A stretch of DNA of 43,335 bases from Dehalococcoidia bacterium (lineage in GTDB: Bacteria > Chloroflexota > Dehalococcoidia > GIF9 > AB-539-J10): assembly GCA_030602785.1 (NCBI GenBank), contig JAUVZB010000013.1:1-43335 (forward strand), given 5' to 3'. A program made the translations under genes and the position numbers. Every line of letters starts with the position of its first letter. Positions within the stretch are counted from its first letter, which is position 1. The notes under the pieces are model-generated. The model did no database searches and was not told the DNA's origin. It saw nothing but the letters and a program-made list of their open reading frames with translations. Of this stretch, positions 17,706 to 23,822 are shown in pieces.

Positions 17706-18020
17706 CAGGCGTCCTGATATGTCAATACTGTGTACTCGTCCTGTTAACGGTCTACGATTCTGTCCTCCCCTAAGCGTTCAGCGAAAATGTCAGCGTGCAG
17801 GAGCTGGTGACGCTGAACATGGTGGGAGCTTGCGTGCGACGTATCGGGTGGAGGGGGCTGTAGGGCTGGTGCACGGGAGAACCGTGCGCGACGGCCGCAC
17901 AGTGCGCTTGATGCTGCCGTAACGGGCCGTGTAGTGATGTTGGCGGAGTCGAAGTACCAGAAGGTGAATCAAGCGGCACCTGACGAACTGACGGCGCTGT
18001 CAATGGCGCTTTGACACCGG
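17706..18020 (+). mobile_element. Insertion-sequence relic B (decayed transposase with 40-bp end repeat)
   Basis: Starts with TGTCAATACTG and GGTCTACGATTCTGTCCTCCCC, homologous to relic A. The transposase start follows at GTG 17795 (VQELVTLN), then, after deletions and frame changes, ATYRVEGAVGLVHG and VVMLAESKYQKVNQ. These match successive parts of the N-terminal DNA-binding region of ISNCY-type transposases. The relic ends with the 40-bp repeat (17981-18020) shared with relic A, in frame DELTALSMAL and stop. The catalytic domain is missing. Its last bases overlap the 3' end of dnaE2 on the other strand. Confidence 0.65.
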
Positions 18021-21000
18021 ATGCGCCCGCGCGCGCCGCCGCGGCGGAAGCGACTCGCCCGTGCTCAGAGACACGGGAGCTATCCCCTCTGCAAGGACAT
18101 TGAGTGTGCCATCCCTTTTCTGCAAAGTCCCGTCTACCACCAACACGGGGTTGAAGGTACATATCTGCCGGTGCCGTTCGTATACGTCAGGGCGAATCAC
18201 GACATTGATCATCCCGTCTTCATCCTCCATTGTGATGAAGGCGAATCCCTTTGCAGTAGGCGGGCGCTGCTTCATGATGACGTAGCCTGCCAGTCTCACA
18301 CACTCGCCGTCGCCGAGCGCAGCAAGGTCGGAACTCATCACAAGCTCCTCCTCACACAGCTTCTCCCTGAGCACTTGCATCGGATGGTGGACTGTCGACA
18401 TCTCCTGCACTTCATAGTCGTAGCGCATCTCCTCAAGGGCGCTCATCCCAGGGAGCGTTACCACAGCACCACCCACATCGAGAGGAAGTTCCCCCGGGTG
18501 CTGTTTCTCAAACACGCCAAGCTGCCACAACAGGTCGCGCCTCGAGCCCCCGCAGAAGTCGAAGGCCCCCGCGAGAATGAGATTCTCCACCGCCTTGCCC
18601 TCGAGTCCAACCCGGAAGTAGAAGTCCTTGAGCGACAGATACGGACCCTGTTGCCGTCCTGCGAGGAGTCTCTCAACCGCCCGGGCGCCAATCTTCTTCA
18701 CGTATCCGAACCCCAGCCTTATGCGACCGCTCTCGATGGAGCACGCTGCGTCACTCCGGTTCATATCCACGGGCAGAATCTCGATGTCGTGGCGCTGTGC
18801 ATCATGAACCACTACCTCCGGCGAGTAGAAGCCCATCGGCTGGTTGTTGAGCAGGGCGCAGTAGAACTCGACCGGGTAGTAACGCTTGAGCCAGGCGGAC
18901 TGGTAGCAGATGAGGGCGAAGCCCGCCGCATGGCTCTTGCAGAAGCCATACTGGGCGAATCCCTCCAGCGCCGCGAACACCCGGTCTGCGATTCTCTCCC
19001 CGACGCCATTCGCCAGTGCTCCCTGCATGAAGCGCTGCCGCAACCGCTCGATAGCTTCATGCGAGCGCTTGCGGCTCATCGCCCGTCTCAGTTGGTCCGC
19101 CTCTCCCGGCGTGAAGCTCGCTATCGCTATGGCAGCCTGGATTACCTGTTCCTGAAAGAGGATGACGCCCAGGGTCTCGGAGAGTATCGGCTCCAGCCCG
19201 GGATGCAGATACGTCACCTTCTCAAGGCCGTTCCTCCGTCGGATGTAGGGATGCACCATGTTCCCCTGGATAGGACCCGGTCGTATGATTGAGACCTCCA
19301 CCGTCAGGTCCTCGATGGAGCGCGGCCGCGTGCGCGGCAGTGTCTGCATCTGGGCGCGGCTTTCAATCTGGAAGACGCCGATGGTATCGCAGCGGCCTAT
19401 CATGTCGTACACGCTCGCATCGTCCTGCGGAAGCGCGTCGAGGTCCAGGGCAACACCGTGCTCCCGTTCCACCAGCACGCGCGCCTCATCAAGAAGCGAG
19501 AGCATCCTCAGGCCGAGCAGGTCTATCTTTATCAGCCCCACATCCGCAACGCTGTCTTTGTCCCACTGGCAGACAATCCTGCCGGGCATAGTCGCCTTCT
19601 CGAGCGGCACGATGTCGCTCAAAGGACAGGAGGAGATGAGTATCCCGCCGTTATGGATGGAGAGATGCCTCGGGAAGTCCGCGAGTTGCACACAGATGGA
19701 TATGAATTCCTGCCACGTCACCCGGTTGAAGTACGACTTGAACTCATCGATGCCGCAGAGTTCCTTCCTCAAATTACCCGGGCCATACCCGTACGACGAG
19801 ACGGACCTCGCCAGGCGGTCAATCACATGGACCGGCATACCGAGCACTTTGCCGACCTCTCGCAGGGCATTCCGTGCCTGGAATGTCACGTACGTACACA
19901 CCATGGCGGTGTGCTCCTGGCCGTACTTGCTGTACACGTACTGGATGAGCTCTTCCCTGTGCGCGGTGGACACATCTATGTCTATGTCCGGAATAGAGGA
20001 CATCTCCTCATTGAGGAAGCGCGCGAGAAAGAGCCTGTTACCGATAGGGTCAACCTTCGTGATGCCAAGCACGTAGGCAATGATGGAGTTAGCCGCCGAG
20101 CCCCGTCCCTGGGCCGGTATGCCGTGCTGCCTCGCATACTCCATGATGTCCCAGACGATGAGGAAGTAACCGGACAGGTCCAGCCTGTCTATAAGGTCAA
20201 GCTCATGAGCGACCCTGGTCTCTACCTCGGAGGTCACCTCTTCATAGCGCTCATGCGCCTTCTGCCGGGACACGCGAGCCAGGTAGCTCTTCGCGGTCTC
20301 GCCCTCAGGCAGAGGGAAGTCCGGGAAGCGGTAGCCGGAGAACTCGAGCGTCACGTTGCATCGTTCCGCCAGTTCGCCGGCAGTTCGCAATGCTGCGGGG
20401 TAGTCCCTGAACAGAATCTTCATCTCCGCGTGCGACTTGAGGTAGAACTCCGCGTTCAGCTTGAGTTCGGCACAATCGTCGAGCGTGCTACGGCTCCTGA
20501 TACAGGTGAGCACGTCGTGCAGGCGATGGGACTCTTTTCTCGCGTAGTGCACGTTGTTGGTTGCCACGTAGCCAGTACCACACTCCCGCGCCAGCTCTAC
20601 AAGGGCAGCGCAGAGCCGGGCATCGTCGGGATACAAAGTGTTCTGCAACTCGATGTAGAAACGGTCCCTGCCGAAGATTTCGATGTACCGGAACGCGGCC
20701 TTGCGAGCCTTCTCGCGCAGGCCGCCCCTGATGAGCCGTGGTAGCTCGCCCTCACTGCAACCGGAGAGGCACAGCAGGCCTGCTGAGTGAGTCGCCATCG
20801 TCGCCCATGACAATACGCATTGGCCCTTGGAGCTGGCGAGTTGCGCCTTCGTGATGGCGCGGCACAGGTTCGAGTATCCCGTTGCATCCAGGGCAATGAG
20901 AGTGACATGGTAGCCACCCTCAAGTGTCAGCTCGGTGCCGATGACAGGCTTGATGCCCTCATGGCTACATGCCCGGTAGAAGCGCACCACCCCATAGAGA

Positions 21001-21131
21001 CCATCGTGGTCAGTGAGTGCAAGCGCGGGCATCTCGAGTTCAGCCGCACGCCGCGCCAGTTCCTCCGGCGAGGAGGCGCCGTCGAGCAGAGAAAACGCGG
21101 AATGGCAGTGAAGTTCTACGTACCCGTTCAT
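18000..21131 (-). CDS. dnaE2: Error-prone DNA polymerase III alpha, DnaE2/ImuC
   Basis: 1043 residues, the length of ImuC (DnaE2) rather than the longer replicative DnaE1. Layout: PHP domain (ELHCHSAFSLLDG at 6-18, ALTDHDGLYG near 38), C-family polymerase core with catalytic aspartates in IPDIDIDV (about 377-384) and KIDLLGL (about 534), HhH and finger region, and a C-terminal OB fold (AGYVIMKQRPP, about 945, to VLVVDGTLQ). ImuC performs mutagenic translesion synthesis together with ImuB during the SOS response. It is the last gene of the lexA-imuB-DUF6504-dnaE2 operon, 50 bases after the DUF6504 gene. Its final residues (PVSKRH) and stop codon are encoded inside the 40-bp repeat of insertion-sequence relic B, so the original C-terminus seems to have been replaced. 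The important domains are complete and it is likely active. Confidence 0.92.
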   Translation of the reverse strand: MNGYVELHCHSAFSLLDGASSPEELARRAAELEMPALALTDHDGLYGVVRFYRACSHEGIKPVIGTELTLEGGYHVTLIALDATGYSNLCRAITKAQLASSKGQCVLSWATMATHSAGLLCLSGCSEGELPRLIRGGLREKARKAAFRYIEIFGRDRFYIELQNTLYPDDARLCAALVELARECGTGYVATNNVHYARKESHRLHDVLTCIRSRSTLDDCAELKLNAEFYLKSHAEMKILFRDYPAALRTAGELAERCNVTLEFSGYRFPDFPLPEGETAKSYLARVSRQKAHERYEEVTSEVETRVAHELDLIDRLDLSGYFLIVWDIMEYARQHGIPAQGRGSAANSIIAYVLGITKVDPIGNRLFLARFLNEEMSSIPDIDIDVSTAHREELIQYVYSKYGQEHTAMVCTYVTFQARNALREVGKVLGMPVHVIDRLARSVSSYGYGPGNLRKELCGIDEFKSYFNRVTWQEFISICVQLADFPRHLSIHNGGILISSCPLSDIVPLEKATMPGRIVCQWDKDSVADVGLIKIDLLGLRMLSLLDEARVLVEREHGVALDLDALPQDDASVYDMIGRCDTIGVFQIESRAQMQTLPRTRPRSIEDLTVEVSIIRPGPIQGNMVHPYIRRRNGLEKVTYLHPGLEPILSETLGVILFQEQVIQAAIAIASFTPGEADQLRRAMSRKRSHEAIERLRQRFMQGALANGVGERIADRVFAALEGFAQYGFCKSHAAGFALICYQSAWLKRYYPVEFYCALLNNQPMGFYSPEVVVHDAQRHDIEILPVDMNRSDAACSIESGRIRLGFGYVKKIGARAVERLLAGRQQGPYLSLKDFYFRVGLEGKAVENLILAGAFDFCGGSRRDLLWQLGVFEKQHPGELPLDVGGAVVTLPGMSALEEMRYDYEVQEMSTVHHPMQVLREKLCEEELVMSSDLAALGDGECVRLAGYVIMKQRPPTAKGFAFITMEDEDGMINVVIRPDVYERHRQICTFNPVLVVDGTLQKRDGTLNVLAEGIAPVSLSTGESLPPRRRARAHPVSKRH

Positions 21132-21181
21132 GCCGATTGCCCTGAATACACGAGAGTCGTCTGACCCGGCATCTCACGTGC

Positions 21182-21433
21182 TCAATCGTAGACACGCTGG
21201 AGTTGCCAGTTGCCTGTCGCCATATCTCTGAAGAGCTCACAGATGATTCCTCCCTCGAGCCTCACACAGAAATAGTCCCTCTCCACCGGGCGTTTCCACC
21301 ACTCCAGGTTCACCCTCCAGCGACTCATGATGCACTCAACCCCTTTTCTACCCTCGAACATGACCTCAACCGGCTCGCACTCGTCCGACTCCGTGACACT
21401 TATCTCCCGGATCTGCCATACGAGCTTATTCAT
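21182..21433 (-). CDS. DUF6504-like small protein of the mutasome operon
   Basis: 83 residues from ATG 21433 (GTG 21436 is an alternative; GGAGGAG favours the ATG). The start overlaps the imuB stop as TGATG, so the two are translationally coupled. Pattern seen: EPVEVMFEGRKGVECIMSRW near 21-40, LEWWKRPVERDYFCVRLEGG, and the ending CELFRDMATGNWQLQRVYD. This strongly resembles the small DUF6504 proteins that sit next to imuB/dnaE2 in Actinobacteria and Chloroflexota (recalled from family knowledge). Biochemical role is unknown. Its fixed position between imuB and imuC suggests an accessory mutasome subunit, perhaps filling the place of ImuA, which is absent here. Confidence 0.8.
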   Translation of the reverse strand: MNKLVWQIREISVTESDECEPVEVMFEGRKGVECIMSRWRVNLEWWKRPVERDYFCVRLEGGIICELFRDMATGNWQLQRVYD

Positions 21434-22620
21434 CACTCCTCCGCTTCACACGCAGCGAAGGAGAACCGCTCCTCCGGCAGTCTGCCATTCCTGCGGGACA
21501 CCACCTTCTTCAGCACGCTTCTCCCATAGCGCTGCTGCAGCACCCTGACTGCCTCCACAAGCTGCTCTTTTGATCTCGGGGGTCCATCGAGGAACGACGT
21601 CTGCGTTCCCTTCTCAGCGCAGAGGTCTCCAGCTTCCAATCGAACCTCTTCCACCGGGTAGGAGCGAGCGATTTCCTCCACGCACTCCAGGACTCTGCGC
21701 GCCATTCTCTGCCGCGAAGCGACGGGCTCCTTGAAATGCAACTCTCGCCGTGCGATCTCTCCATTCTCAAAGCACACAGACACCACAAGTGTGCGGCAGC
21801 ACTGCCAGCGTTCCCTCAACTTTCGGCATAGTGATTCGAGCAACTCCTCCGTGGCCTCCAGCAGTTCGCCACTATCCTCAACGGGCACATCGAAGCACTT
21901 CTCCAGTACAAACTCACCCTCCTCTTTCCACTGCCCCACTGACCCGTCATCGGAACCACGCGCGAGTTCGTAGAGCCGTCGGCCCTCCTTTCCGAACTGG
22001 CACTCCACAGCCCCGCGGGGCAGCGTCAGCAGTTCACCCACCCGCGAGATGCCGAAGAGGCACAACCTGCGTATCGTTCCGGCCGAGACAGGAAGACTTT
22101 CGAGGGGCAGGTACTGAAGAAAGGCCTGCTCCTCGCCGGCAGGGACAACCAGTGTCTGCGATAGCTCCGCTTTTTCAGAGGCGAGGCGGGCCACAAATCC
22201 CGTCGAGCCGATGCCGCCGGAAAGCAGGAACCCCATCTCCTCTTCCACCGAGGCCATGACATCTGCGACAAACCGGGCCTCGTTCGCCTCATACTTGAGA
22301 CCCATCAGTACATGCGATGGTGGGGCCGGCTCAACAAGAGGGCAAAGCTGCGCGACCAGGGAAAGCACACGAGAGAAAGCCTGTCGGCATCTCTCCTCGC
22401 TATAGGGCAGGAACACGCCCCGGGGACACAGGGAATAGGCCTGTCGCAGTGGAGCGTCCGGCACAACGCCATAGGCGGCGGCCTCCTCGGAGACATCCCA
22501 CACACGGCCCGTTTCGTGGTGATAGCCACCTATGATAAGCGGCTTCCCGCAAAGGGCAGGATTATCCCGCCGCTCCGCCTGGATGGCGAAGTGCGGCACA
22601 TGAAGACATGCGATTCTCAT
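21433..22620 (-). CDS. imuB: Inactive Y-family polymerase-like protein ImuB
   Basis: 395 residues with the Y-family fold in outline: palm start MRIACLHVPHFAIQAE, RVWDVSEEAAAYGVVPDAPLRQAYSLCP, LLSGGIGSTGFVARLASEKA, a thumb/HhH region (FGISRVGELLTLPRGAVECQFG) and a little-finger domain. The acidic residues needed for catalysis are not there: the usual D of D-x-D is replaced within CLHVPHF, and no S-x-DE motif is present. This is the hallmark of ImuB, which serves as a scaffold linking ImuC to the beta clamp. QTSFLDG near residue 345 may be the clamp-binding motif. It starts 24 bases after lexA and overlaps the DUF6504 gene, all in one operon. Confidence 0.88.
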   Translation of the reverse strand: MRIACLHVPHFAIQAERRDNPALCGKPLIIGGYHHETGRVWDVSEEAAAYGVVPDAPLRQAYSLCPRGVFLPYSEERCRQAFSRVLSLVAQLCPLVEPAPPSHVLMGLKYEANEARFVADVMASVEEEMGFLLSGGIGSTGFVARLASEKAELSQTLVVPAGEEQAFLQYLPLESLPVSAGTIRRLCLFGISRVGELLTLPRGAVECQFGKEGRRLYELARGSDDGSVGQWKEEGEFVLEKCFDVPVEDSGELLEATEELLESLCRKLRERWQCCRTLVVSVCFENGEIARRELHFKEPVASRQRMARRVLECVEEIARSYPVEEVRLEAGDLCAEKGTQTSFLDGPPRSKEQLVEAVRVLQQRYGRSVLKKVVSRRNGRLPEERFSFAACEAEE

Positions 22621-22644
22621 CGAATGAACTCCGGCAGAGGATAC

Positions 22645-23280
22645 TCAGCGCGCCAGCTTTCGTATCACCGCCACCACCCTGCCCTGTATCTCCACGTTCC
22701 CGGGGTCCACGTAGAGGGGCTCTATCTGCCGGTTGGCCGGCTGCAGCCTGATGTGGTTCTCTTCCCTGTAGATACGCTTGAGCGTGACCTCGTGCTCATC
22801 CTTGAGCCACACGGCCACCATATCGCCGTCCAGGGCCGTTTGCGTCGCCTCCAGGATGACGATATCTCCGTCCATGACGCATGCGTCTATCATGGACCTC
22901 CCTCTCACCCTGAGCGCGAACAGATTCTTGCCATCTCCCACAAGCTCACGGGTCAGGCCAAGCACCTCCTCGGCGCCGCTAACCCAGTTGTCGGACTCCG
23001 GCACCGGAATCGGGGTGCCGGCCGCTATGGCGCCCAGCAAGGGCACCTCTACATTGTTTCCTTGTACAAGCTGAATGCTCCGGAACACACCGGGCTCCCG
23101 GCGCAGCACTCCTTCCTTTTCCAGCACGTTCAGGTGATATTGGACAAGGTTAGGGGAACTCAAGCTGCAGCCGTCGACGATATTGCTCACCGAGGGAGAG
23201 TAGCCTTTCTCCGCGATGAACGATTGAATGAACTTGAGAATCCTGTCGCGCGTCCTGTTCACACCTGTCCTGGTCACCAT
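22645..23280 (-). CDS. lexA: LexA repressor
   Basis: 211 residues from ATG 23280 (GTG 23286 is possible; AGAGG precedes). The N-terminal winged helix-turn-helix (RDRILKFIQSFIAEKGYSPS, LSSPNLVQYHLNVLEKEGVL) is followed by the S24 autoprotease. It has the cleavage site Ala-Gly in LLGAIAAGTPIP (near residue 86), the catalytic Ser in RVRGRSMIDACVMDGD (near 128) and the catalytic Lys in HEVTLKRIY (near 167). All elements for RecA-stimulated self-cleavage are present. It heads the mutasome operon, and its promoter contains a perfect palindrome that is very likely its own operator. Confidence 0.93.
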   Translation of the reverse strand: MVTRTGVNRTRDRILKFIQSFIAEKGYSPSVSNIVDGCSLSSPNLVQYHLNVLEKEGVLRREPGVFRSIQLVQGNNVEVPLLGAIAAGTPIPVPESDNWVSGAEEVLGLTRELVGDGKNLFALRVRGRSMIDACVMDGDIVILEATQTALDGDMVAVWLKDEHEVTLKRIYREENHIRLQPANRQIEPLYVDPGNVEIQGRVVAVIRKLAR

Positions 23281-23298
23281 AGCCACCTCTACATGATT

Positions 23299-23316
23299 GT
23301 TGTATAAACATACAAC
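23299..23316. promoter_or_regulatory. Candidate LexA operator (SOS box)
   Basis: GTTGTATAAACATACAAC is a perfect 7-bp inverted repeat with a 4-base centre. It lies 18 bases upstream of the lexA start and covers the -10 box. It has the TTGT-N8-ACAA form, the same spacing as the enterobacterial CTGT-N8-ACAG box and unlike the Bacillus GAAC-N4-GTTC type. Confidence 0.75.
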
Positions 23317-23335
23317 TACCGGGGCATGATGTCAA
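23307..23335 (-). promoter_or_regulatory. Promoter of the lexA-imuB-DUF6504-dnaE2 operon
   Basis: On the minus strand, a perfect TTGACA (23335-23330) and TATGTT (23312-23307) are separated by 17 bases. The -10 box lies within the palindrome at 23299-23316, so a bound repressor would block RNA polymerase. Confidence 0.7.
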
Positions 23336-23486: not shown

Positions 23487-23822
23487 CTAGCAAGCGTCGT
23501 CGAGGGCATGTTCGAGGAAGCGCTCGAACTCACCCTCCGCGTCGGCCACGGCAGGGATGGACGGAGAGTACAAGATACGACGGCCCTCACGCTTCGACGT
23601 GACAAGTCCGCCGGTCTCAAGCACATGCAAGTGGTACGAGACGGTCTGGCGCGGAACACCCAGCATCTGCTGCAGCTCCGAGGAGCTCATCTCCCCACCC
23701 CGGAGGAGTTGCAACACCCGCAGCCGCGTATCCGCGGACAGGGCCCGGACTATGTTCACGACGTCTTTCATAGAGACCCGGGGCGAGGCATCCGGTTCGG
23801 GAACCGTCGCCCGTGTAGACAT
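23487..23822 (-). CDS. ArsR-family transcriptional regulator
   Basis: 111 residues. Winged helix-turn-helix of the ArsR/SmtB type: IVRALSADTRLRVLQLLRGGEMSSSELQQMLGVPRQTVSYHLHVLETGGLVTSKREGRRILYS (about residues 24-87). No CxC metal-binding motif is seen in the recognition helix; the only cysteine is at the very C-terminus. It may therefore respond to something other than metals. It is a single gene on the minus strand about 200 bases upstream of lexA, and divergent from the DUF3795 gene, which it could regulate. Confidence 0.85.
   Translation of the reverse strand: MSTRATVPEPDASPRVSMKDVVNIVRALSADTRLRVLQLLRGGEMSSSELQQMLGVPRQTVSYHLHVLETGGLVTSKREGRRILYSPSIPAVADAEGEFERFLEHALDDAC

Follow-up and report, generated by a model that had tools for sequence, protein, structure and literature searches.

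The window analysed here, a stretch of 43,335 nucleotides from a Dehalococcoidia bacterium, carries a compact operon that we read as a LexA-autorepressed mutasome cassette, in which an inactive ImuB would serve as a scaffold on the sliding clamp, RecA would stand in the place of ImuA, and a separately encoded ImuB-C domain would link this scaffold to DnaE2; we estimate the probability of this joint reading at roughly 0.87. Its sequence-level basis consists of the gene content, homology, a dead active site, protein motifs, a conserved operator, and the lack of a detectable ImuA. This cassette arrangement has been described before in Deinococcus, and what appears to be new is how widely it occurs in Chloroflexota, so that a known but little-studied mutasome type is now placed across many mostly uncultured members of this phylum. 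In addition to this spread, the analysis contributes a second, probably independent, ImuB/ImuB-C fusion, a Dehalococcoidia pair of DnaE2 and ImuB-C without an adjacent ImuB, a perfect lexA operator confined to this operon, and a foreign gene within the cassette of four of the five genus mates that bear it.

Gene order and the small ImuB-C protein

According to ORF calls, lexA, imuB, a gene for an 83-aa protein, and dnaE2 follow one another head to tail on the minus strand of the window, with 24 bp between lexA and imuB, a TGATG stop/start overlap between imuB and the 83-aa gene, and 50 bp between the latter and dnaE2. LexA (22645..23286; 213 aa) matches TIGR00498 (E 2.4e-49) and possesses an Ala-Gly cleavage site, the GRSM serine, and the TLK lysine. 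ImuB (21433..22620; 395 aa), which is of the inactive Y-family polymerase type (ImuY/iPolY), matches the profiles IMS (E 2e-22) and IMS_C (E 3e-11), and DnaE2 (18000..21131; 1043 aa), an error-prone C-family polymerase with PHP, polymerase, HhH, and OB domains, scores 1138 bits on PRK05672, above the cut-off. The length of the small protein (21182..21433) is counted from an ATG, with a GTG standing 3 bp upstream. ORF calls and profiles thus bear out the original prediction of four same-strand genes with these spacings behind a LexA-like promoter, and the coupling of the small gene to imuB and dnaE2, which had also been proposed, is likewise upheld. Because the gene set is conserved across genomes, a chance arrangement can be ruled out.

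The 83-aa protein itself matches no Pfam or NCBIfam model and does not reach the PF20114 cut-off, so that DUF6504 membership is not readable from it directly; the genome as a whole gave no DUF6504 match at 1e-3. PF20114 was matched, in turn, by 24 of 39 aligned homologues of this protein (best E 1.3e-8), and the homologue of one same-family relative exceeded the cut-off. The earlier assignment to DUF6504 therefore stands at the level of the superfamily, but not for the window protein taken by itself. PF20114 also matches full-length ImuB over its last 70-75 residues, at positions 432-504 in Mesorhizobium and 429-504 in Methylosinus, in both cases in an operon that includes ImuA. When the small family was made into a profile, it hit four ImuB proteins of alpha-Proteobacteria at their C-terminal ends, with E-values from 4e-4 to 4e-9. 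These matches of both profiles to ImuB C-termini indicate that a single superfamily comprises DUF6504 and the ImuB-C domain described by Aravind et al. (PMC3765255). Judged by its profile relationships, the 83-aa protein is a standalone ImuB-C, that is, the C-terminal domain of ImuB made as a separate protein, and the small hypothetical or DUF6504 proteins of these operons would be better named ImuB-C.

AlphaFold2 models the protein confidently as an all-beta domain (mean pLDDT 88, pTM 0.77), which agrees with the reported description of ImuB-C as a beta-barrel without a close PDB relative (PMC12926913). No significant PDB or viral fold match to this model was found, the best PDB Foldseek E-value being 0.96. 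A resemblance to cystatin-like scaffold proteins (best VIA: Z 6.5, rmsd 2.9, 67 residues) was set aside as lying in the range of common arrangements, and comparison of the 83-aa profile with sequences of solved structures returned only chance-like matches, to a designed repeat protein and a protease. In its strong form, the original prediction would make this protein a substitute for ImuA that would bind the RecA-like motif of ImuB and control DnaE2. Such a role would suit its occurrence where imuA is missing and the overlap of its start with the imuB stop, but the all-beta model does not resemble ImuA, which is RecA-like; ImuB ends in a homologous domain where the operon also has a bona fide ImuA, as in alpha-Proteobacteria; and some relatives without imuA have the domain and ImuB as one protein. 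We consider the substitution highly improbable, and the claim was dropped.

A proposed ImuB scaffold with RecA in the place of ImuA

The predicted overall fold of ImuB matches Y-family polymerases. In an alignment to DinB structures, the catalytic residues D8/D103/E104 of DinB correspond to H7/S102/H103 of the window protein, positions that are not conserved among its relatives, and by these replacements the window ImuB is judged catalytically dead. A putative beta-clamp-binding motif, QTSFL, occupies residues 340-344 (21589..21603, minus strand), and Q340 is invariant in 23 sequences. It is followed by a RecA-N-terminus-like motif at residues 351-375 (21496..21570, minus strand), for which profile comparison with the RecA N-terminus gave an E-value of 2e-4 at a modest probability of 46%; this was the best RecA-like match among all windows along ImuB, with the next-best control about tenfold weaker. 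The ImuB model places a helix at 351-365 and then a strand at 371-375. In mycobacteria, the RecA-N-terminus-like motif of ImuB was reported to bind ImuA' (PMC11791113).

A profile search of the window genome, which is 95% complete, detected no ImuA above the cut-off and a single RecA only, as had been predicted for imuA. In the survey of relatives, the ImuA profile matched in 131 of 149 genomes and the cut-off was reached in none, an absence judged with a single curated model and in genomes that are incomplete; the matches obtained in nearly all genomes were mostly RecA itself and were rejected as ImuA candidates. The lack of ImuA, together with a dead ImuB that retains clamp and RecA-N-terminus-like motifs, suggests that RecA sits in ImuA's seat, and RecA presumably occupies this place in the complex as the most likely arrangement. 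On a plasmid of Thermomicrobium roseum (L082, 3703-5974), dnaE2 stands beside an imuB-like gene that overlaps with a RecA-like one; the latter is possibly an ImuA-type partner in a Chloroflexota relative.

In the proposed mechanism, LexA bound to a dyad over the -10 box would repress its own operon until DNA damage gives rise to RecA filaments, which would provoke LexA self-cleavage and hence production of the inactive Y-family protein, ImuB-C, and DnaE2. The inactive protein would then act as a scaffold, attached to the sliding clamp through its QTSFL motif, and its RecA-N-terminus-like motif would bind RecA, where ImuA binds elsewhere. The separately made ImuB-C would join this scaffold to DnaE2, which would carry out error-prone lesion bypass, and once the damage is over, new LexA from the same operon would switch the operon off. 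Regulation, complex formation, and the use of RecA are inferred here, with the biochemistry taken from relatives and the structure models being of single chains. In Deinococcus deserti, UV-induced mutagenesis was demonstrated to need ImuY, DnaE2, and RecA; induction is RecA-dependent, and LexA is cleaved in vitro with RecA (PMC8072749).

Probable LexA control of the operon

Upstream of lexA stands a sigma-70-like promoter, TTGACA-17 nt-TATGTT (23307..23335, minus strand), whose -35 box and spacing are kept in six same-genus genomes. The predicted LexA operator, a GTTGTA-TGTTTA-TACAAC dyad (GTTGTATGTTTATACAAC; 23299-23316, minus strand), occurs once in the window, where 0 are expected by chance; the perfect dyad TTGTATGTTTATACAA encloses the -10 box, and its aligned core is kept upstream of lexA in the same six genomes. 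In the four genomes having it, the zero-mismatch dyad is found solely at the lexA operon, and sites with one mismatch occur at about control level. The window genome encodes a single LexA, with its cleavage site and catalytic residues present. Taken together, the dyad, the promoter, and the LexA residues favour LexA autoregulation, and the expectation that the repressor heads the operon behind a plausible autoregulated promoter was well founded. An ArsR-type HTH regulator (23487-23822) lies on the same strand directly upstream of the lexA promoter, and a similar HTH gene precedes lexA in the genus mate L178.

A search for further LexA operators gave one extra one-mismatch site, which is intragenic and expected by chance, and no dyad site upstream of recA, in a search that would miss weaker LexA sites. 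Another genome (G002) has a second near-perfect site, on contig C87, which turned out to belong to a further fragment of the lexA locus. These results hint at a very small LexA regulon. We also entertain, with considerable reserve, the possibility that the only LexA of the genus serves essentially its own mutasome operon, so that the SOS response would have been reduced to a mutagenesis switch that is self-contained and resets itself, RecA being both its trigger and a structural subunit in ImuA's seat.

The original prediction of one promoter for the whole cassette fits the window, but does not extend to four of its five cassette-bearing genus mates, in which an opposite-strand gene lies between imuB-C and dnaE2. 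This gene, of roughly 155 aa, codes for an XRE-type DNA-binding domain with membrane segments after it; it is located at 6123-6722 in L031, with matching gaps in L032, L034, and L035, and is absent from the window and L033. Given this position, dnaE2 probably needs its own promoter in those genus mates, and a single four-gene transcript is not general. The same gene lends some weight to the view that the genes are neighbours and not one regulatory unit, with dnaE2 transcribed separately and LexA controlling only lexA, imuB, and imuB-C. We regard this as unlikely for the window, where the gap is 50 bp and the minus strand carries no terminator-like site, and the gene set stays together across Chloroflexota; a LexA-controlled operon that includes dnaE2 is the reading we prefer.

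Distribution and known counterparts

DnaE2 was assigned by score in 45 of the 149 related genomes, and ImuB-C was detected in 41 of these 45, a co-occurrence with an odds ratio of 40 (p 1e-16, without correction for kinship). In most loci examined, imuB, imuB-C, and dnaE2 are grouped, and the lexA-headed cassette was found in the window's family and at one further Chloroflexota locus, L114. The split-ImuB module is widespread in Chloroflexota, with the lexA head almost solely in the window's Dehalococcoidia family. The DnaE1 proteins of relatives score about 666-740 bits on PRK05672 and form a clade separate from DnaE2. In the DnaE2 tree, which was built without named DnaE2X references, an ImuA-linked clade, a clade with only ImuB-C beside dnaE2, and the split-ImuB rows are all separate, and the window DnaE2 stands apart from the first two.

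ImuB and ImuB-C are fused in one frame at L068 (4242-5699), L069 (5897-7387), and L168 (6187-7845), all from Dehalococcoidia without imuA; in the DnaE2 tree, these branch from within the split forms. Forcing these three together with the ImuA-linked proteobacterial fused type was rejected (AU p 1e-10, on a quick tree with long branches), which suggests that the fusion arose more than once; independent fusion within Dehalococcoidia is most likely. In family-, order-, and class-level relatives (L154-L160 and L163-L166), a divergent 82-aa ImuB-C precedes DnaE2 with no adjacent ImuB. DnaE2 and ImuB-C pairs without ImuB were reported solely from Actinobacteria in a 2026 survey (PMC12926913). ImuB-C thus occurs within one class as a separate protein, fused to ImuB, and beside DnaE2 without ImuB, which supports its view as a DnaE2-linked module, and these mixed states also support an origin of the classic fused ImuB from the joining of two proteins.

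An alternative proposal (Aravind et al. 2013, PMC3765255) sees in ImuB-C chiefly an adaptor that binds DNA or lesions, and not a module for docking to DnaE2. Its conserved Arg and Trp residues could make contact with DNA, and in sister families the standalone protein adjoins lexA without a polymerase, but ImuB-C tracks DnaE2 even at DnaE2 loci without ImuB, and published AlphaFold models set it against the DnaE2 PHP domain (PMC12926913). An adaptor role in the main is in our judgement improbable, and docking to DnaE2 remains the favoured function.

The closest known arrangement is the lexA-imuY-imuB-C-dnaE2 cassette on plasmid 1 of D. deserti (PMC8072749), in which the same four genes follow one another in identical order on one strand, with LexA at the head, no imuA, and an ImuB-C of 80 aa annotated as DUF6504 family. 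Its proteins nevertheless share only about 30% identity with those of the window (DnaE2 33%, E 2e-144; LexA 30%, E 2e-18; ImuB E 2e-27 by profile; ImuB-C E 6.5e-6, or 5e-13 by profile), the LexA profile finds just the C-terminal half of Deinococcus LexA, and Deinococcus DnaE2 is placed on its own long branch of unsure position, not grouped with the window DnaE2. The DnaE2X type of Kyrpidia tusciae (PMC6511836, PMC12926913) likewise combines an inactive Y-family protein bearing a clamp motif and a RecA-like motif, a standalone ImuB-C, and DnaE2, without ImuA. A 2019 study reported variants that lack ImuA and have ImuB-C as a standalone protein (PMC6511836), and a DnaE2-iPolY-[ImuB-C]-RecA type was linked to the DnaE2X group in 2026 with AlphaFold support (PMC12926913), in an account whose main text makes no mention of Chloroflexota, where the type is widespread. 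With the ImuA-ImuB-DnaE2 mutasome of Mycobacterium, Pseudomonas, and Caulobacter, of which lexA-headed versions exist (PMC8072749), the window cassette shares a homologous ImuB core, the ImuB-C domain, and DnaE2; unlike that mutasome, it has no ImuA and divides ImuB and ImuB-C between two genes.

At six further loci (L045, L049, L050, L052, L055, and L070), imuB-C directly follows lexA with no polymerase gene adjoining, and two of these genomes, G056 and G072, carry a second LexA elsewhere.
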